IMG/VR virus record: IMGVR_UViG_3300013102_000011
Location: 1-51,974 of that record
Direction: 5' to 3' (one strand)
Source: a virus
DNA length: 51,974 bases
In this document: positions 4,374 through 42,839 of the stretch, in pieces
Layout of the letters: each line of letters starts with the position of its first letter
Numbering within the stretch: the first letter of the stretch is position 1
The notes under the pieces: generated by a model
What the model saw: the letters and a program-made list of their open reading frames with translations, nothing else
Databases searched by the model: none
Told to the model about the DNA's origin: nothing
Program-made: the position numbers and the translations under genes

Positions 4374-6118
4374 AGCTGTCGCTACGGCCCTACCAGCACC
4401 GCGGTCTGGACGAGATTCGGTTCGAGTACAAGAGCAAGCGGCGGCGGCCCCTATACGTGCTGCCGACCGGCGGTGGCAAGACGGTTTGTTATGCGGCGAT
4501 CGCCGAGGGTGCGGCAGCGCGCGGTAAGCGCGTGCTCATCCTCGAGCACCGAAAGGAGCTGATCCGGCAGGCATCCACGGCGATCGCCCGGCTCGGCCTG
4601 CGCCACCAGGTGGTGTGCCCGCCGGAGAAGCTGGCCGGCATCCGCAAGGCCCACATCAATGCCGTGGGCATGCCGATGCTGGATCCGCGCGGCCACGTCG
4701 CGGTGGCCAGCGTGCAGACCCTCGCCGTCCGCATGGACTGGCTCGAGGAATTCGACCCCGACATCATCATCATCGACGAGGCGCACCACGCCGTCGCCGG
4801 AACCTGGGCGCGCATCATAGCCGCCTGCCCGCGCGCGCTGCTGCTGGGCGTCACCGCGACGCCGGTGCGCACCAACGGCCAGGGCCTGGGCGATGTGTTC
4901 GACTGCATGGTGCTGGGCCCGACGATGAAGGAGCTGATCGCCGACGGCTACCTGCTGCCGCCGCGCGTGGTCGCGCCGCCGTTGAAGGTCGATCTGTCCA
5001 AGGTGCGGAAGCGCGGCGGCGACCTGGACGCCGACCAGCAGGCCGAGCTGATGATGGCCGACCGGGAGATCACCGGCGACGCGATCGAGCACTACAACCG
5101 CCTGGCGCCCGGCCGGCCGGCGATCGTGTTCTGTGCCAACCTCAAGCACGCCGAGTCGGTGGCGGCCGACTTCCGCGCCGCCGGCTGGCGGTTCCAGGTC
5201 ATCCACGGCGGCATGCTGGACACCGAGCGCGACGGGCTGATCGAGCAGCTGGCCGATGGCCGGCTCCACGGTCTCGTCAACAAGGACCTGATCAGCGAGG
5301 GCACCGATATCCCGGTCGCCGAGGTCTGCATCCTGCTCCGGCTCACCGAGTCGGAATCGTGGTACCTGCAGGCCACCGGCCGGGTGCTACGCCCTGTGTA
5401 CGCCGCCGGCTACGACCTGTCCGACCTGGACGGCCGCATGGCCGCGCTCGAGGCGTCGGGCAAGCCCTACGGCCTGGTCATCGACCACGTCGGAAACTCC
5501 GGCCGGATCATAGATGGCGAGTTCGTGCCGCGGCACGGCCTGCCGCACGACGACCGCGACTGGACCCTCGAGGGTCGGAAGAAGCGGAAGCGGAAAGGCC
5601 AGCAGGAGGAGGCCATCGAGGCCGCCACGCAGTGTCCGAGCTGCTATGCCGTGCACGATCCGGCGCCGGCGTGCCCGGCCTGCGGCCACACCTACAAGGT
5701 GCGGGCGATCGCGCCGCCTAAGCAGGTCGACGGCACGCTGGTCGACGTCGAAAGTGAGGGCGTGATCCGGCGCCAGCAGCGCCAGGCCCAGGGCGCCGCG
5801 CGCACGATCGACCAGCTCGTGGCCCAGGGCATGACCGAGGGCCGGGCCCGGCACATCCTCGAGGCGCGGGCGGAGAAGGAGCGCATGCAGCGGCAGCTCC
5901 GCGACCTGGCCGAGCGCTGGTACGGCGAGGCTGGGCATGCCGACGTTCCGCTGCAGCGCGCGCTGCACCAGGCGTTCGGGTTCGGGCTGGGCGATATCGC
6001 CGGGATGAAGCCGAAAGCGCTGCGCGAGGCCGTGGAGCGCGTCACCGAGGAGGTCCTGCGCCTGCAGCTCGGTGCGCCGGCCAACGACAACGGTTTCGTG
6101 ATCCGCAGCTCGGCCTGA
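4370..6118 (+). CDS. DEAH-box superfamily 2 helicase
   Basis: A 582-aa SF2 helicase. It has a Q-tip-like RPYQHRGLDEI, Walker A PTGGGKT at 32-38, DEAH at 136-139, TATPVR as motif III, and a C-terminal RecA domain with an ATGRVLRP motif VI. A zinc-ribbon-like CPSC...CPAC pair lies near residues 424-440, followed by a helical tail. It starts at GTG 4370, overlapping the previous stop (GTGA). Phage helicases of this type unwind DNA or remodel replication or recombination intermediates. It faces the recombination operon divergently, with no downstream partner on its strand. Confidence 0.92.
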   Translation: MKLSLRPYQHRGLDEIRFEYKSKRRRPLYVLPTGGGKTVCYAAIAEGAAARGKRVLILEHRKELIRQASTAIARLGLRHQVVCPPEKLAGIRKAHINAVGMPMLDPRGHVAVASVQTLAVRMDWLEEFDPDIIIIDEAHHAVAGTWARIIAACPRALLLGVTATPVRTNGQGLGDVFDCMVLGPTMKELIADGYLLPPRVVAPPLKVDLSKVRKRGGDLDADQQAELMMADREITGDAIEHYNRLAPGRPAIVFCANLKHAESVAADFRAAGWRFQVIHGGMLDTERDGLIEQLADGRLHGLVNKDLISEGTDIPVAEVCILLRLTESESWYLQATGRVLRPVYAAGYDLSDLDGRMAALEASGKPYGLVIDHVGNSGRIIDGEFVPRHGLPHDDRDWTLEGRKKRKRKGQQEEAIEAATQCPSCYAVHDPAPACPACGHTYKVRAIAPPKQVDGTLVDVESEGVIRRQQRQAQGAARTIDQLVAQGMTEGRARHILEARAEKERMQRQLRDLAERWYGEAGHADVPLQRALHQAFGFGLGDIAGMKPKALREAVERVTEEVLRLQLGAPANDNGFVIRSSA

Positions 6119-6127
6119 AAAGGCGAA

Positions 6128-6147
6128 GGCCCCGGTAGTCCGGGGCC
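6128..6147 (+). terminator. Hairpin after the DEAH helicase
   Basis: GGCCCCGG-TAGT-CCGGGGCC, 10 nt after the helicase stop, with a weak CTCT tail. Likely terminator between convergent units. The rest of 6148-6470 shows no convincing gene; it holds a TCCCCGG/TTCCCGGG cluster near 6249-6264. Confidence 0.65.
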
Positions 6148-6470
6148 CTCTGCGGCGCGTCTCTCGACGATGGCCACCTGGCGATGAGGTGCGCTGACGG
6201 CGCTCGCCAGGTGTTGCGTGCCGGTTGGGATAGCCGGCTGAGATGGCCTCCCCGGTTTCCCGGGATCTACCCTGCCCATGGAGTTTTCGCCATCTCGCTT
6301 TCGACTGCTGCATCGGGAGCCCGGCATTTCAGACGGGGCCGGTGTCGTGCCGGCTCGATTTTCCCTTTTGATGCTGCCGGCTGACGGTCTGCGTCACCAT
6401 CGTCCCGGCGAGTGCGGCCGAGGAAGGACGGCAGGGCTCGCATCCTGCCAACTGCACTCTTGGGCCAATC

Positions 6471-6689
6471 CTACCGCTTGACCTTCACCGCCTGCAACAG
6501 AAGGCCGCTGATCACCGCCGTCGCGCTGCCGCCTCCGGCCTCCTGCAGCTGGGCCAGGGCGTTGGCGGCGTCGGCCGGTAGCAGCAGCTCCAGGCGGCGG
6601 CCGCCTTCGCCAACCACACGGGTCCGGTGCTCCCGCGCGTTCTTGCGGCGTGCCAGCGTGGATCGGCTGGGCTGGGTGTTCTCGCTCAT
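6471..6689 (-). CDS. Hypothetical 72-aa basic protein, RHH-like composition
   Basis: The ATG at 6689 is preferred: GAGGAA precedes it and it overlaps the upstream stop by 1 nt. The protein has a basic start (STLARRKNAREHR), then RRLELLLPADAANALAQLQEAGGGSATAVISGLLLQA. A strand followed by two helices is the layout of small ribbon-helix-helix DNA-binding proteins. This is the last gene of the 8.4-6.5 kb accessory operon. RHH-type regulator is a suggestion only. Confidence 0.6.
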   Translation of the reverse strand: MSENTQPSRSTLARRKNAREHRTRVVGEGGRRLELLLPADAANALAQLQEAGGGSATAVISGLLLQAVKVKR

Positions 6690-9158: not shown

Positions 9159-9233
9159 TGGTGAGCGGGGTGGGGATCGAACCCACGACCACAGAATTAA
9201 AAGTTCCGTGCTCTACCACTGAGCTACCCGCCC
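9159..9233 (-). tRNA. tRNA-Lys (anticodon UUU)
   Basis: A complete cloverleaf: acceptor GGGCGGG/CCCGCUC with one G-U, D-stem GCUC/GAGC, anticodon stem CGGAA/UUCUG with loop CUUUUAA, variable UGGUC, T-arm GUGGG-UUCGAUC-CCCAC, discriminator A, and an encoded CCA. AAA/AAG lysine codons would benefit. In a GC-rich genome a phage UUU tRNA may supply wobble reading, or the copy may descend from an attachment site. Confidence 0.93.
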
Positions 9234-30731: not shown

Positions 30732-30965
30732 TCAGAAGATGAACCGGACGGGGCCGCGGCGTGGGCGCTCAATGCCCTCGCAGTCAGCGATCTGGTTCTT
30801 GAGGTCCTCGATGTAGACCTTGAGCTGATTGATGTTGCCCTGGGTGTAGGTGACCGACTTGCTCGGACCGAATTGCACGGTCTGCTCGGCGGTACCGGTC
30901 AGCAGGCGATGCAGCGCCAGCTCCGCCTCGGCCAACCACAGCTTTTTGGTCAAGCAATCGGTCAC
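30732..30965 (-). CDS. Head-tail connector gpW-like
   Basis: A 77-aa protein, LWLAEAELALHRLLTGTAEQ then YTQGNINQLKVYIEDLKNQI, the two-helix gpW pattern, with a short basic tail. It closes the portal after DNA entry and has the lambda gene order A-W-B. Confidence 0.9.
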   Translation of the reverse strand: MTDCLTKKLWLAEAELALHRLLTGTAEQTVQFGPSKSVTYTQGNINQLKVYIEDLKNQIADCEGIERPRRGPVRFIF

Positions 30966-32875
30966 AGGTATGGGTCGTCCGGGCGGCTGATCTTGGGTTT
31001 GAAGGGTGCAGACTTCGACGCGGCTGGTGCTTCCGGTACCGGCGCGATGTCAGCTTCCGCCCTGGCCCACTGTTCCTCCGTCCATCGGTCGATACCTTCG
31101 AGGAAGGCGGCTGCGCGGGCGTAACCGCGGCAGTCCAAAACCTCATTTCGACCGTAGACGTTCTCCCACTGGTACCGCCGGAAGCCCTTGACCAGCCTCG
31201 GCACGATTTCCTCGGCCGTGAGCTGTTTGAAGTATTCTTCACCGTACTGGGGGAAATGACAATAGCCGTAGGGAAGTTGTTCGCCGCTCTCGTCGGTCGG
31301 TTTCTCTTGCTTCAACCACCCGTAAAGCTCCGTTTTTACCAAGGAACTCCCGACGGGCCACAGTTTTACGCTCCGGCCCTTGCGTTTACCCTGCACGGTT
31401 ACTTCGACGGCCTTCGGCTGGCCGATGATCATCTGGTAGCTGTCGCGGCCGTCGACGGCGATCACCCGGTTGGCGGCCTGGCCGCGCACGAACTGGTAGA
31501 CGGTGTTGGTGTTGTAGCCGGAGTCGATCGCCATGCGCGTGATCCGCGCCCGGCCGCCTGCGGTGGTGGTGAATTCCTCGTCCAGGATCTCGGCCAGCTT
31601 CGGCCACGGGCTGTTCGGGCCGGTCAGCTGCGAGGTGTCGCCCGGGATCACCCGGTAATCGACCGACCAGCTCTCCATGCGCCGGCCGTAGGCCACGATC
31701 TCGACCTCGAGGCGGTCTTTCTGGACGTCGACGCCGGCCACCAGCAGCACACCCCCGAACGGGATGGTGCCGACCAGGTACAGCTCGCGGCGGTCGTACA
31801 GCTTCTTCCATTCCGGCGCGTCGCCCTCGCCCTTGTAGGTCTCGCCCAGGACGGTGTTGATGAACGACTTCCGTTCCTCGGTGTTCTTGTGCGAGGCCAG
31901 CCACTCCCGGGCCAGCTGCTCCCAGCTGGCGTTCGGCGAATATGAATACGCCGCCCAAATGTGGAAGCTGGCGTGCCTCGGCTCCGCGTTGGGGTTGGTG
32001 GCCACCAACCCATACCGCTTGTCGCCGGCGAGGTTGCGGCGGTCGGCCTCCTCGACCATCCAGCGCTGGTGCTTGTACTCGATCACGCAGCCGTTGTGCA
32101 CGCAGGCGAAGTGCGCGGTCTCCGGCTTGTCCTTGTCCCAGCGCAGGTTCTGCCATTTCAGCACCTGCGGCTCGTCGCAGTGCGGGCACGGCACGTGGTA
32201 GTACCGCATGTCGCCGCGTTCGAACTGGCGCTTGATGCGGCTGGTCTGGTCCAGGGTCGGCGTGCTGCCGAGCAGGAACTTGCGATTGAAGAAGAATTCC
32301 GCGCGGCGCTTGCCCAGGGTGATCTGGTCGCCTTCCTCGCCCGCGGTGGCCGCGTAGCCGTCGACCTCATCGAACAGCACCAGGCGCATCGACACACGGC
32401 GGAAGCCGCGCGGGCTGTCGGCGCCCACCATGCGGAGCTGGCCGCCGGGGAACAGCTTGTGCAGGATCGTGTTGCCGGCCTCGCGGCGCCCGGTCTCCGG
32501 GAACAGCGGCTGCAGCACCGGCGTGTCGCGGATCATCGGGCCGATCTCGTCTTTCGAGTAGCCCGCGGCGTCGCCGATCGTCGGCTGCACGATCATGATC
32601 GGGCACGGGTCGTAGTGGACGTAGTAGCCGACCGTGTGGTTGATGATCTTGGTCCAGCCGACGCGGGCGGACTTCATGCAGGTCACCGTCTCGATCTGGC
32701 GGTCCGTAATTGCGTCCATAATCCCGCGCTGGTACGGGATCGTGCGCCAGCGGCCGACCTCGGCGGACGATTCCGCCGACAGCACGGCGTGCCGGTCCGC
32801 CCACTGCGATAGCGTGAGTTTCGGCGGCGGGCGCCAGGCCTGGCGTATGGCCTCGGCCAGGACGTCAGCGTCCAT
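30962..32875 (-). CDS. terL: Terminase large subunit (lambda gpA-like)
   Basis: A 637-aa protein. ATPase motif KSARVGWTK (68-76), Walker B LVLFDE with Asp169-Glu170, a zinc-like CPHC (230-233) with C258/C263, and the nuclease start GVDVQKDRLEVE with Asp383. The gpA type usually cuts at cos sites. It overlaps gpW by 4 nt and the small subunit by 11 nt. Confidence 0.94.
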   Translation of the reverse strand: MDADVLAEAIRQAWRPPPKLTLSQWADRHAVLSAESSAEVGRWRTIPYQRGIMDAITDRQIETVTCMKSARVGWTKIINHTVGYYVHYDPCPIMIVQPTIGDAAGYSKDEIGPMIRDTPVLQPLFPETGRREAGNTILHKLFPGGQLRMVGADSPRGFRRVSMRLVLFDEVDGYAATAGEEGDQITLGKRRAEFFFNRKFLLGSTPTLDQTSRIKRQFERGDMRYYHVPCPHCDEPQVLKWQNLRWDKDKPETAHFACVHNGCVIEYKHQRWMVEEADRRNLAGDKRYGLVATNPNAEPRHASFHIWAAYSYSPNASWEQLAREWLASHKNTEERKSFINTVLGETYKGEGDAPEWKKLYDRRELYLVGTIPFGGVLLVAGVDVQKDRLEVEIVAYGRRMESWSVDYRVIPGDTSQLTGPNSPWPKLAEILDEEFTTTAGGRARITRMAIDSGYNTNTVYQFVRGQAANRVIAVDGRDSYQMIIGQPKAVEVTVQGKRKGRSVKLWPVGSSLVKTELYGWLKQEKPTDESGEQLPYGYCHFPQYGEEYFKQLTAEEIVPRLVKGFRRYQWENVYGRNEVLDCRGYARAAAFLEGIDRWTEEQWARAEADIAPVPEAPAASKSAPFKPKISRPDDPYL

Positions 32876-33491
32876 CTGCCACCTCGACCAGCGCCTCGTT
32901 GATCAGGTCCTCGAGGATCTCGATGTCGCGGAAGGTCAGCGTCGGGATACGGCCCTTGGCCTTGGTCGGCACGGCGAGGAGTTTGGTTTTTGCCGTGGTG
33001 ATCATGCCGACAAACTTGACCTTGATCAGTTCGGCATCCACGAGCCTCCCGGCGCGCTCCTCGTGGTCGAGCCGAGCGTCCTCGGATCGGTAGAACTCCG
33101 TCCGGCGCTTGCTCTGCGCGATCGATGGCAGCCCGGTGCCGTCATCGACTTCGTCATCGTCATCGAGGCTTCGCTGGGTCGTGGTCAGGGGGGCGGGTGG
33201 CTTCTCCTTCGCCGTGGCCGTCTTGCCGCGCCGCTGCTCCCAGCCCTTTCTGGCGCCCTCCGACATCGCCGCCTTGTCGCGCACCTGGGTCACGTCACGG
33301 CTGCGACCCCAGTGCTTGGCTGCGGCATCCGGATCGGTGATGACCGGGCGCTTGCTTCCCGAGCGGAGGGTGATCTCGCCGACGCAGCTGGCCGGGATCT
33401 TGCCGTCGGCCACGGCGCGGCGGACGTACTCGCCGGAGACGCCAAGCTGTCGGCCGAACTCGCGGAGGCTGATTCCTTGCTGGGGTGACAT
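32865..33491 (-). CDS. terS: Terminase small subunit (Nu1-like)
   Basis: A 208-aa protein from MSPQQGISLREFG at 33491. Winged-HTH: SLREFGRQLGVSGEYVRRAVADGKIP. A charged middle (residues 85-120) precedes a helical oligomerisation part. It recognises packaging sites, which in lambda lie just upstream of its gene. Confidence 0.85.
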   Translation of the reverse strand: MSPQQGISLREFGRQLGVSGEYVRRAVADGKIPASCVGEITLRSGSKRPVITDPDAAAKHWGRSRDVTQVRDKAAMSEGARKGWEQRRGKTATAKEKPPAPLTTTQRSLDDDDEVDDGTGLPSIAQSKRRTEFYRSEDARLDHEERAGRLVDAELIKVKFVGMITTAKTKLLAVPTKAKGRIPTLTFRDIEILEDLINEALVEVADGR

Positions 33492-33930
33492 TGAGCGGTG
33501 CGCGCCGGGCTCGTGCGTGTTGTTGACGATTCTACGGTGTTGACAACTGCACCGGCAACGGATGGCACGGTGGTTTCGCGGGAATGCGCGGGATGGCAAC
33601 CACGTACAGCGGCCGTGAACGTTCAGTTTTCGCCGGTGATGGCTTGATGGGCCTGCATTCGGCTCGCCATCGTTCTATCCGTGTTGTAAATGGCGCCTAC
33701 TCGCTTTCAGCGTTGCATATAGCGATGCCGGGCAGTCGCCGTCCCCCGTGATCCGACATCGCCAGGGAGGACCCGCTCTTCACACGCCTGTGGATAACCT
33801 GTGCGTATCAACCCCTCTCCCTTGCCTCGCTTGGATTCGCGCATGGCTTCGCCTGCGTCTCGCCTCGTCGCATCGATCGCTGCTGTTGGTGTGGAGGTGG
33901 GCATGCACCCCATGCCCTGGTGCTGCTGGG
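33492..33930. other. 439-bp gene-free region upstream of terS; candidate cos and DnaA box
   Basis: No supported gene. The minus strand carries a perfect DnaA-box consensus TTATCCACA at 33789-33797. The position matches the lambda cos region (just before Nu1), but no staggered-cut palindrome is obvious. Mixed GC with AT-richer stretches at 33683-33722. Confidence 0.5.
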
Positions 33931-34674
33931 TCAGCGACCGGTGCCGATCTCGACACCACGCGACACGCTGTTAGCACGCTCGCTCGCGCTCTTGCCCGAG
34001 GCGATGGCCCTGCGCAGCGCTTTGTCGAATGCCTGGTAGTAGCCCTGGTCCACCTCACGTTGAGCGATGAGATCCATCTCGAACTCCCGCTTGATGGTGA
34101 CCCCCCGCTTGAAGGCGTACACGATGCGCAGCGGATAGCGTTCCTCACCGGTGCGCTGTGCGATGACCTCGTTGCCCCACTTCCGGGCCTGGAAGATGAA
34201 GGGCAGCCGCTTGTCCTTGCGCTGGCCCCTGGCCCCGAAGCTGCGATTCAGTTCGCCCTGGCGCTGGGCACGCTTGATGCGGGCGATCATCGCTGCAGGT
34301 CGCTTGCCGGTGGGGACGCGGCCTGATCCCGAGCGCAGGTTCTCCTGTTCCAGGATCGCTCGGCCGTGTGTGCCGCCCTGTCGCTTGCCGCCTGTGATGT
34401 GATCGATCAGGTACGACCGCTTCTCCTCGATGCCGACCTCGGCGTAGACCGTGGGCCAGTCGCCCTTGTCGGCCTTGTTCACCTGGACGCCGCTCTGGCT
34501 GAACTTGTTCCGCAGCTCCATTGCTCTGGCCATCTCGGTTTTCTCCGCGCGCTGCACCTGGAAGGCGAGCGTGGTGAGGGCCGATGCGGTGGCGAAGGGG
34601 ATCTGCTTGCCGGTGAAGTCGCCGAGGGCGTGGGCAAGCACGGATGCGTCGGAGCTGATCTGGACGTAGGCCAT
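33931..34674 (-). CDS. Hypothetical protein upstream of terminase, minor-tail-Z-like layout
   Basis: A 247-aa basic protein. ATG 34674 is preferred over the TTG frame extension. The N-terminal FATASALTTLAFQVQRAEKTEMARAMELRNKFSQ resembles the helical start of lambda gpZ-type minor tail proteins; the rest is basic with beta-type segments. Position before terS is odd for a tail protein, so it might also be a packaging or injection protein. Moderate to low family confidence. Confidence 0.55.
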   Translation of the reverse strand: MAYVQISSDASVLAHALGDFTGKQIPFATASALTTLAFQVQRAEKTEMARAMELRNKFSQSGVQVNKADKGDWPTVYAEVGIEEKRSYLIDHITGGKRQGGTHGRAILEQENLRSGSGRVPTGKRPAAMIARIKRAQRQGELNRSFGARGQRKDKRLPFIFQARKWGNEVIAQRTGEERYPLRIVYAFKRGVTIKREFEMDLIAQREVDQGYYQAFDKALRRAIASGKSASERANSVSRGVEIGTGR

Positions 34675-34712: not shown

Positions 34713-35006
34713 GCCGCAAGGGTTTTGCGGTGGCGTTGTAGTAGGCGTAGTAGCGATGTAGTGCCGGGAACCCTTGTGCTGCTTGCCTCTCCTACACTTA
34801 CTACACTTACTACAGTAATTTATTTATTTCTTTCATGGGGTATCCATGTTTGTAATTCGCTTTTGTTGATGTGGTTTCTCTATAGGGGGGTGTGTCAGGG
34901 GATCGGTAGTTTCCGTAGTTTTCGTAGTAAACCCTTGCGGCACAATGGCTGACGCCACTACACCGCTACTACAAACGCCTGTCGCTACTACGCTCGCTGC
35001 GTAGTG
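34713..35006. repeat. Iteron cluster of 9-bp GTAG/CTAC units, candidate origin or centromere
   Basis: Four blocks in alternating orientation. 34738-34763: GTAGTAGGC, GTAGTAGCG, GTAGTG. 34792-34818: CTACACTTA twice, then CTACAGTAA. 34906-34932: GTAGTTTCC, GTAGTTTTC, GTAGTAAAC. 34955-34991: CCACTACAC, CGCTACTAC twice, then GTAGTG at 35001. Flanked by a 12-bp inverted repeat CCGCAAGGGTTT (34714-34725) / AAACCCTTGCGG (34929-34940). An AT-rich stretch (34812-34835) lies between the second and third blocks. Confidence 0.8.
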
Positions 35007-35029
35007 CGGTATCCACATTTGCAATTGGC
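34839..35029. repeat. 22-bp direct repeat pair GGTATCCA...
   Basis: Copies at 34839-34860 and 35008-35029 agree at 18 of 22 positions. The second contains GTATCCACA, one mismatch from a DnaA box. They flank the third and fourth iteron blocks. Confidence 0.65.
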
Positions 35030-35075
35030 GATATGGATGTGCGAGGATCGCGCCGTCCCCAAAGGTATCCAGATT

Positions 35076-35453
35076 ATGAACTTTGAAGATGAATTCCTCG
35101 CCCGCTTCGCTCGCGTCCGCATCCTCTCGCGGTCCTTCCCGTTGCAGGACTTCGCCGTGCTGTGCCTGATGGCAAAGCAGCCGGACCGCCGCTTCGAGGT
35201 GCAGCAGATCGCCGACGCTGTGGAGACCGCATATACCAACGCCTGGAACTCGATGCGTCGCCTGCAGCTGGCCGGCCTGGTGCTCGGCGGTAGGTTGAAC
35301 GATGCCGGCCGCGAGGCCATGGGCATAGATCCCGACTGGGTTGCGCCCAATCCGCTCGACAAGCCATGGCGCGGTGATGGGCAGGTCGAGCCGCCCGCCG
35401 CGCCCGCGCGCGAGGCGCCGGCCGTCGTGCCGGATCCACGCGAGCTGTTCTGA
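35076..35453 (+). CDS. Winged-helix-like regulatory protein
   Basis: A 125-aa protein starting MNFEDEF at 35076. Residues 20-80 (LQDFAVLCLMAKQPDRRFEVQQI then NAWNSMRRLQLAGLVLGGRLNDAGRE) have a helix-turn-helix-wing layout of MarR/PadR-like or replication-initiator-type domains. The C-terminus is proline/alanine-rich. The only plus-strand gene here, it begins 47 nt after the iteron region and may bind it. Initiator, partition or regulator cannot be told apart. Confidence 0.65.
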   Translation: MNFEDEFLARFARVRILSRSFPLQDFAVLCLMAKQPDRRFEVQQIADAVETAYTNAWNSMRRLQLAGLVLGGRLNDAGREAMGIDPDWVAPNPLDKPWRGDGQVEPPAAPAREAPAVVPDPRELF

Positions 35454-39968: not shown

Positions 39969-42839
39969 CTATTCCTCCTCGGCCCTGAGCACCTGGTCGA
40001 TCGGCACGAACGTAGCCCTGGCACTGAAACCCTGACAGAAAGTGATCGGCATGTTGTGCGGCTTCGCCCCGGGCAGGCGCCGCAGGTAGGACCGCCAGTC
40101 CGCCGCCCATGGCGCGCCGCGCAGGGCCTTGGTCAGCTTCTCGCTCTTGTTGGCCACCAGCAGGCCGGCGTCCCTCCCGACGATGCCGGGCTTCACCTTG
40201 AGGCCGAGACGCCCCAGCGCCGCGCCTGCCTCGGCCGGCCACACCCCGTTCTTCGAATTCTTGTTGAACACGATGCTCACCAGCTCGCCGGTGGTCAGCG
40301 TGGTCGATCCGCGCTCCAGCTCCATGCGGTGCTCGATCTGCATGATGGCGGTCATGGCGTCGGCGGATTCATCCTCGTGCGCCGCCTCGTGGAACGTGCT
40401 CCAGTCGAACATGCGGATCAGTTTGAGCGCGCCCTCCTCGCTGATGGGGTGGTCGTAGAACAGGGTCGCGGTGCCGGCCAGCATCGTGCCGTACTGATCG
40501 CCGAGACGCTGCGACCTGAACTCGCGGGCGGCCACGCGCACCAGGGTCCGCATGTTCTCGCGGATGGTGTCGTACATGGCGATGCTGCGGGCCAGCAGGC
40601 GGCCGGCGAACTCCGCGTCGTCGCGCAGCTCCGCCAGCATGCTTTCGGTCTCCAGCCACTTCGCCTGGTGCACCTCGAGCTGGTCGGCCGACACCTGCGC
40701 ATTGCCGTACAGGCTCAGGATGCTGATGCGGGTGTGGTCGGCTTGGCGCTTGATGCCGACCTGGATCGAGGCGAGGCAGAACATGGACCGGATGTGGAAT
40801 TCCAGGTGCTTGCCGGTCGTGGTGCCCTTGAGGGTGCGGGACTGGCTCTCGCTCGATGATTGCCGGATCAGCGACAGGATGTTCTGGACGCGGTTTTCCT
40901 CGCGCTCGTCGTTCTGCTCGCTCTCGTCGAACAGCACCGGCCGGGCATCGGCGCGCAGGGTCTGGCGGATGCCGGCCTCGGTGCTGTTGCCCTGGACCTG
41001 CAGCTCCATGCCGGCCATCAGCGGCGCTACGAATTCATTGAGGATGGTGGTCTTGCCGGTGCCGGTGCCGCCGCTCAACCACACATGCGGGCGCCAGCGC
41101 AGCGCGCCGCACAGCGGCGCCAGCACGATCCAGCCGGCCAGCAGCGCGGATGACGCCGGCATTTCCCAGTTGAAGCGCTTGGCGATATCGATCACCCGGC
41201 GGGCCTGGTCCACCGGCAGCGGCTCGGCGGCGGGGCCACGCAGACGGGCGCCGGCCTCGTAGATGAACTCGCTGTCGACCTCCTCGACCCGGCTCTCCTC
41301 GCCATCGAGGATCACGCGGTTGCCCAGGTTCAGTACCAGGCGCTTTTCGTCGATCCAGCAGCCGCGGCCGCGGATGATCGAGGTGTCGAAGATGCCCTCG
41401 CGCTCGCACTGGCGCATCAGCGCGTCCGTGGCTGCCTGCCAGTGTTCGGACTTCATCTTGTCGCCGTAGGCGAAGGTGTCCTGCCAATACACCAGCGGCG
41501 CCAGCTGCATCAGGCCGGTTGGGCCGTGCGACTGTGCGGTGTAGTCGTGCACCTGGCGCTGCTTGCCGCTGAGGTAGAAGTAGCGGCCGCGGTCGTAGCC
41601 CAGCGCCCGCACCGGGCCGGCGTCGAACTTCACGTCGCGCGGCGGGCGCGGGCGCTCCGGTTTATCGGCTTTCTTGCGCGGCGCCGGCGGTTCGCTGCTG
41701 CTGGGCTCGAACGGCGGCACGTCCTCGTCCACTGGCGCCGGCGGCTGTTCTTCGGCCTGTGGTTCGGCATGGCGTTCGCGCAGGTCCGCTGGTGTGGCGA
41801 TCCTGGCCTTGATCTCGGCCAGCACCTTTTCGCCGTCCCAGCCGTCGGCCTCGCCGTCAGCGAGATCCCAGCCGTCGGCGATGGTGTCGGGCTGATCGAC
41901 GGCCACCACGCGCATCTCGGCGCCGTGTTCCGCCAGCCGATCGGCGATGCGCAGCATGGCGAGCATGCCGGGCTGTTCCAGGTAGGGCCGCATGTTCCCG
42001 TCGCGGTCCCGCTGGCTGTCGCAGTCCGGCCAGCCGACGACCTTGCGGCCGGCCAGCAGCGCCCAATCCGCCTTGTCGACGGCCTTGCAACCGCCCGGCC
42101 AGGTCAGCACCAGGTAGGACCGACCGGCGAGCATTCGGCGTGCGGCATCGGCCGCCTTCTCGCCCTCGACCAGGATCACGTTGGCATTCGGGTGCTGGTC
42201 CAGCAGCTCAGCGCCGTACAGTGCCCGCGGCTCCTCGAGCGCACCCTGGCGCCAGCGGCTCTCGCCGCCATCGGTGTTGGTCTGCCACGTCACCGGGATG
42301 ACGTCCTTGCCAGTGCTGCCATCGGGCTTGGCGAACTCCACGCGGCAGGTGTAGCCGAGCAGCTCGCCGGCGCGGTTTCGGTAGGCCCAGGCGGCGACCA
42401 CGGCGGTGTCGCTCCATTCGCCGTTGCGCTGGATCCGCAGTGTCGTCGGTGCTGGTGGCGCGTTGTCGGGCGCGGTGGTCTTAATCCACTTCGGCTGTTC
42501 CGTGACGCGACGCGAAGCCCGCTGCACCGGCGCGTTGTCGTTGGCCGGCAGGATGCCGCCGCTGATCTCCGCCAGTCGGCGCGCCGCGTCACGAAATCCG
42601 AGGCCCTCGTATTCCATGATGAAGCGGAGGCTGTCGCCGCCGGCGCCGCAGCCGGCGCAGTAGTAGAGCTGGGTTTTCGGGGTGACCTTGAACGATGGTG
42701 TCCGCTCGTTGTGGAACGGGCACAGCGCGCTGTATTCGGTTCCCTGCCTTTTCAGGTCGACGCCGCAGGCGCGGATGACGTCCTCGAGGTCGATCTGGTT
42801 TTTCAGGGATTCGACGTCGATGCGGGGTTGGGCGCTCAT
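39969..42839 (-). CDS. Primase-helicase with CHC2 zinc finger, Toprim and P-loop ATPase
   Basis: A 956-aa replication protein. Zinc finger C40xxH43 and C61xxC64, typical of DnaG-type CHC2. Toprim entry LVEGEK near residue 223 and D-x-D-like PDCDS near 270. A low-complexity Pro/Glu linker lies near 365-400. The C-terminal DUF927-type ATPase has Walker A GGTGTGKTT near residue 595. It would prime and unwind at the phage fork. Its start overlaps the XRE gene stop by 4 nt. Confidence 0.93.
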   Translation of the reverse strand: MSAQPRIDVESLKNQIDLEDVIRACGVDLKRQGTEYSALCPFHNERTPSFKVTPKTQLYYCAGCGAGGDSLRFIMEYEGLGFRDAARRLAEISGGILPANDNAPVQRASRRVTEQPKWIKTTAPDNAPPAPTTLRIQRNGEWSDTAVVAAWAYRNRAGELLGYTCRVEFAKPDGSTGKDVIPVTWQTNTDGGESRWRQGALEEPRALYGAELLDQHPNANVILVEGEKAADAARRMLAGRSYLVLTWPGGCKAVDKADWALLAGRKVVGWPDCDSQRDRDGNMRPYLEQPGMLAMLRIADRLAEHGAEMRVVAVDQPDTIADGWDLADGEADGWDGEKVLAEIKARIATPADLRERHAEPQAEEQPPAPVDEDVPPFEPSSSEPPAPRKKADKPERPRPPRDVKFDAGPVRALGYDRGRYFYLSGKQRQVHDYTAQSHGPTGLMQLAPLVYWQDTFAYGDKMKSEHWQAATDALMRQCEREGIFDTSIIRGRGCWIDEKRLVLNLGNRVILDGEESRVEEVDSEFIYEAGARLRGPAAEPLPVDQARRVIDIAKRFNWEMPASSALLAGWIVLAPLCGALRWRPHVWLSGGTGTGKTTILNEFVAPLMAGMELQVQGNSTEAGIRQTLRADARPVLFDESEQNDEREENRVQNILSLIRQSSSESQSRTLKGTTTGKHLEFHIRSMFCLASIQVGIKRQADHTRISILSLYGNAQVSADQLEVHQAKWLETESMLAELRDDAEFAGRLLARSIAMYDTIRENMRTLVRVAAREFRSQRLGDQYGTMLAGTATLFYDHPISEEGALKLIRMFDWSTFHEAAHEDESADAMTAIMQIEHRMELERGSTTLTTGELVSIVFNKNSKNGVWPAEAGAALGRLGLKVKPGIVGRDAGLLVANKSEKLTKALRGAPWAADWRSYLRRLPGAKPHNMPITFCQGFSARATFVPIDQVLRAEEE

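Follow-up and report, generated by a model that had tools for sequence, protein, structure and literature searches.

SaPI Rep and SCCmec Cch2, both initiator helicases, recognise through their C-terminal domains iterons that lie downstream of the genes encoding them (PMC7581432), and P4 alpha, a primase-helicase, reads repeats through a winged-helix origin-binding domain (PMC4234260). In the V. cholerae PLE, the initiator domain of RepA and the origin have been swapped together, which has been proposed to put the element beyond the reach of a phage nuclease that cuts the origin (PMC8263062). Here, we analyzed a 51,974-nucleotide IMG/VR phage contig (the window), which is circular and comprises 51851 bp plus a 123-bp exact end repeat. 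Positions 34713-35029 of this stretch are probably a phage replication origin, at which a phage-encoded winged helix would bind the word GTAGT and load the phage's own helicase-primase. The locus and its relatives appear to share with SaPI and SCCmec the combination of an initiator helicase C-terminal domain and short iterons, which in those systems lie directly downstream of the gene, and with P4 a primase-helicase carrying a repeat-reading winged-helix domain. Unlike SaPI and SCCmec, the systems considered here are whole tailed phages with fused primase-helicases, and their arrays sometimes lie several kb from the primase. An earlier reading of the region, made from sequence only, had proposed a module of a new type. 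This is too strong, since SaPI, SCCmec, and P4 already provide examples of iterons beside an initiator-helicase gene that are read by the C-terminal domain of its product (PMC7581432, PMC4234260).

The array comprises 12 GTAGT/ACTAC units within 34738-35005, in the order +++--+++---+. Block 1 contains three GTAGT units (34738..34762, plus strand; units at 34738, 34747, and 34758), block 2 two ACTAC units within CTACACTTACTACACTTACTAC (34800..34813, minus strand; 34800 and 34809) with a partial unit at approximately 34792, block 3 three GTAGT units (34906..34928, plus strand; 34906, 34915, and 34924), and block 4 three ACTAC units (34957..34991, minus strand; 34957, 34968, and 34987), followed by a single GTAGT (35001..35005, plus strand). 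The sequence-only reading had counted about twelve 9-bp units in four alternating blocks; the number and the alternation stand, but the blocks are five, and the 9-bp spacing is confined to the tidiest of them, with 10-19 bp in the others. The highest density of units is 12 per 300 bp in the array, compared with 3 in the rest of the window and 3 in 100 Markov sequences, which rules out a chance origin. Short repeats in both orientations are also what an attP with integrase arm sites would present, but the window encodes neither a tyrosine nor a serine recombinase (PF00589 and PF00239 are both absent), which bears out the earlier remark that no integrase is intact and leaves an attP extremely improbable.

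Further elements are interspersed with the iterons in a gap that, chance ORFs aside, is free of genes, as the sequence-only reading had it. The AT-rich core that it described also holds: a stretch at 34798..34857, within the array, has 27% GC against 66% for the window and is a candidate DNA unwinding element. Adjoining it is a CTATAGGG motif (34880..34887, plus strand), and CTATAGG or TATAGGG occurs in the arrays of Bordetella phage PBb001, Serratia phage MQ-4, Acinetobacter phage Acjo_20, L005, and L046 as well. A second box, AACCCTTG/CAAGGGTT, spans 34717..34937 in three copies (34717, minus; 34769 and 34930, plus), which are the only ones in the window. What had been described as a 22-bp direct repeat pair exists as a 25-nt box, TGGGGTATCCATGTTTGTAATTCGC (34836..34860, plus strand) and the 80% identical TGCGGTATCCACATTTGCAATTGGC (35005..35029, plus strand), with a third copy of 12 nt, the GGTATCCAnATT part, abutting the start codon of the adjacent gene (35064..35075, plus strand). 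The 12-bp inverted repeat reported earlier is real (GCGTAGTAGCGA/TCGCTACTACGC) and is accompanied by one of 13 bp (GCCGCAAGGGTTT/AAACCCTTGCGGC). Features of the array recur in order over a half-array of ~165 bp, but the local alignment score was not above the best shuffles, and we rejected an imperfect tandem duplication of the half-array. The near-DnaA box noted before, GTATCCACA at 35009, is present, but DnaA-like sites are at chance level (3 found, 3.0 expected), and we rejected a DnaA-dependent origin on this basis. The IHF consensus had no mismatch-free match in the window array, and GC skew, which had been suggested as a check, showed no switch at the array and was uninformative.

The exact array is carried by only two genomes, the window and its closest relative (L030/L061, hereafter L030), in which the layout +++--+++---+ is identical. 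Block 1 and the AACCCTTG/CAAGGGTT boxes are kept in L030, and the first copy of the 25-nt box is identical there. Identity between the two is 93% over the array DNA and 96% over the core, 85% over the adjacent gene, and 75% over the stretch after that gene. Thus, the absence of the repeats from relatives, which the sequence-only reading had named as grounds for abandoning its proposal, was looked for and did not occur. A blastn search of the region against phage records gave no match. On its other side, the array adjoins a Minor_tail_Z gene (33931..34674, minus strand), as in L003, L084, ZRG1, and PBb001, followed by the terminase small subunit gene (TerS, 32865-33491, minus strand) and the GpA-type large subunit gene (TerL, 30962-32875, minus strand).

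The gap that separates the minor-tail gene from TerS may hold cos; it contains a perfect DnaA box, TTATCCACA, at 33789-33797 (minus strand), which is conserved in L030. In L030, these two genes are separated by a gene for a ParB-domain/methylase fusion (4896-6494), which the window lacks at this position. Elsewhere, the window has a tRNA-Lys(ttt) gene (9159-9233, minus strand).

The candidate initiator is a 956-aa CHC2 primase-helicase (39969..42839, minus strand) with a winged-helix-like C-terminus; the structure model of this part is fair and has a winged-helix-like order, and a Foldseek search with it returned nothing significant. Its gene lies ~5 kb from the array, so in the window the array is not beside the helicase gene. 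Such adjacency is seen in SaPI and SCCmec, and origin function does not require it. We fetched loci by homology to the window primase, without use of the array, and added named phages found with the same primase. Iteron arrays lie directly after the primase in L003 (GGTAAC), L005 and L006 (GTGAGA), and L010 (GGTTAC). Among the named phages, Pararheinheimera phage KLER1-1 has a CTTAC/CTAAC array, with an IHF consensus match, in the primase-TerS gap; Synechococcus phage S-H1, whose record has a Terminase_6C terminase, has a CGTTAG array after the primase; Acinetobacter phage Acjo_20, whose record gave no GpA or Terminase_6C match, has a GTTACA array before it; and Serratia phage MQ-4 has a GTTAC-like array 1.7 kb after it. 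Against the origin reading, several kb separate the array from the primase in the window, L004, PBb001, and ZRG1, and in all of these except L004 it is closer to the packaging genes than to the primase. A common slot (array, minor-tail gene, TerS, TerL) is found in the window, L003, L084, PBb001, and ZRG1. An AT-rich stretch was present in the arrays checked, and the window-type primase occurs alongside GpA, Terminase_6C, and other terminases. The origin-like character proposed earlier is well supported by comparison, even though the exact array is confined to two genomes. The same cannot be said of its centromere-like character, for which we found no support: a repeat array, together with ParB-domain genes in L030, ZRG1, and PBb001, would fit the partition site of a plasmid-like prophage, but the window proteins searched included none recognised as ParA or ParB, the ParB-like domain of L030 is fused to a methylase, and the arrays follow the primase. 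We consider a partition site very improbable.

A search with a two-block GTAGT pattern returned 94 collection hits (40 viral and 54 genome stretches), many of them in coding DNA or unrelated bacterial repeats, which rules out the pattern alone as a diagnostic. Several non-coding viral hits adjoin replication genes, encoding AAA_25 helicase-primases (L037, L039, L051, L054, and L064) or members of other replication families (D5/NrS-1-type in L046, DUF5906 in L062). The covariation described below concerns the AAA_25 helicase-primases, a different primase family from that of the window. As a test less prone to bias than the pattern search, loci were fetched by homology to the L039 helicase-primase, and the DNA after the primase stop codon was examined. 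In 61 of 70 loci, the 330 bp following the stop contained 7 or more copies of some 5-mer, GTAGT arrays being in the minority. The usual layout, seen in most of the 22 displayed stretches, is two units, a spacer, three to four inverted units, two units, a palindrome, and two units; the spacer often carries an IHF-like AATCAATGGGTTA, an IHF consensus match is present in several of the arrays, and the palindrome is CCTATAGG- or CCTTTAGG-like. The word itself, of 5-6 bp, changes as a block, and we found at least 12: GTAGT, AGGAC, GTGAA, CGACG, GTGTA, TAGAA, TGAAA/CATAC, GTATA, TAGGA, CCGAC, TACCA/GGTAC, and GTAAC. Such a large repertoire on a similar layout sets the family apart from SaPI and SCCmec.

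At matched helicase-core identity, the C-terminal winged helix of the AAA_25 primase covaries with the word (0/2000 permutations). L132, 74% identical to L039 overall, has a different C-terminus and a different word, whereas L138 (57%) and L139 (56%) have the C-terminus and word of L039. The roseophages CRP-821 and CRP-823 share the host strain on which they were isolated and are 100% identical in TerS, 99.6% in TerL, and 99.0% in SSB; their primases are 97.8% identical over residues 1-640 but 67.6% over the last 105 residues, and their words are GTATA and GTAGT, respectively. Within this family, then, the word goes with the C-terminal part of the primase rather than with TerS or the host, and it is apparently read by the C-terminal winged helix of the phage primase acting as initiator. 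In the best-studied relatives, the reader is likely the helicase-primase's own C-terminus. According to the paper in which these phages, the CRP-822 phages, are described, nearly all members lack an integrase; "origin of replication" and "repeat" are terms that it does not use (PMC12629253). As in the PLE, initiator domain and origin change together, and the PLE co-swap offers a reason for word turnover (PMC8263062). In the PLE, however, RepA_N reads three semi-palindromic iterons of ~30 bp, compared with ~10-15 short units here and, in the AAA_25 family, an apparent C-terminal winged-helix reader.

Since the window array has the replication genes on one side and TerS-TerL on the other, and is closer to TerS than to the primase, its repeats might instead serve packaging, as a cosB- or pac-like element to which TerS, ~1.1 kb away, binds. 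Repeat arrays near TerS can belong to packaging, because in Serratia phage BZS1 (L218), a terminase relative with a related GpA terminase and lambda-O replication, ten GGTAAC units (48-303) sit at the annotated cos end and run into the TerS gene, short repeated sites near TerS of the lambda cosB type. The KLER1-1 array, moreover, is <400 bp from the deposited genome end. Most of the BZS1 repeats, however, share one orientation, and part of them is coding, the units inside TerS encoding repeated GN(K/R) residues; and, unlike a lambda-type cosB, the roseophage word is independent of TerS, differing between CRP-821 and CRP-823 where TerS does not. Arrays also accompany the primase across terminase types, the Acjo_20 array is upstream of the primase, that of MQ-4 is 1.8 kb from the genome end, and the ParB/methylase gene of L030 leaves the array unchanged. 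A packaging site is, in our judgment, unlikely.

The gene on the far side of the array encodes a 125-aa putative winged-helix protein (35076..35453, plus strand), a feature in which the window differs from P4. This protein is a candidate GTAGT binder, as the sequence-only reading had suggested. It was found only in the window phage and L030 (89% identical) and had no match in Pfam, PHROG, or PDB. Its structure model is poor (pLDDT 67), and because of this low confidence the winged-helix fold is not established here; it has weak local similarity to the winged helices of the GTAGT class (mean Z 1.1 vs -0.35). Transcription of this gene would lead away from the array, a copy of GGTATCCA precedes its start, and protein and array are both conserved in L030, as would be expected if its product bound GTAGT as an operator, controlling its own gene and the late operon with no origin role. 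But relatives have arrays in the same slot where no gene of this type was seen, AAA_25-family arrays covary with the primase, and the AT-rich element is present, all of which make a pure operator array quite unlikely. Within an origin, the GTAGT reader could be the primase C-terminus or the 125-aa protein, and the latter could instead act like P4 Cnr, which is reportedly a regulator. The window word is an outlier in its lineage, where words are mostly GTTAC/GTTAG-like; this, with the 125-aa protein not being seen elsewhere, is suggestive, no more, of a separate reader. It is conceivable, though the less probable course, that the 125-aa protein rather than the primase reads GTAGT and recruits the primase-helicase, such that a reader and word cassette retargets an unchanged replisome.

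For the window array as a replication origin, we propose a series of steps modelled on those of SaPI Rep and SCCmec Cch2 (PMC7581432) and of P4 alpha (PMC4234260). The winged helices of a phage-encoded protein would bind the GTAGT iterons on both sides of the AT-rich element, and the phage helicase-primase would be loaded and assembled there; the AT-rich stretch would open, unwinding would follow, and the primase would then start synthesis. Whereas binding, loading, opening, and origin function in the window phage are what we infer, the conservation of the array, its AT-rich element, the arrays of primase relatives, and the covariation of AAA_25 word and C-terminus can be read from the sequences. 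The array most likely belongs to a large family of origins in which a phage helicase recognises a row of short repeats; members of the family tend to retain the layout, whereas the word changes along with the protein domain that seems to read it. In this way, sequence alone suffices to place the likely origin in a class of uncultured phages. Many different short words that correspond to winged-helix sequences, on a layout that stays similar, would constitute a natural code, and the GTAGT/GTATA pair of CRP-823 and CRP-821 makes origin specificity directly testable. Word swapping further suggests that interference directed at origins, or competition among related replicons, exerts pressure.

Two further groups of repeats were met in the pattern search. 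The marine phage contigs L048, L057, L058, L044, L065, and L066 have a symmetric 3+3 (or 3+2) GTAGT array, mostly adjoining TerS; L065, the one contig long enough to test, gave no AAA_25 helicase match and encodes DNA polymerase A, an observation that counts against the origin reading. In Bacteroidales loci (L075, L076, L088, L096, L117, and others), which are Parabacteroides and Tannerellaceae genomes, tandem and inverted GTAGTTAAAG/GTAGTCAAAG repeats match the same pattern.
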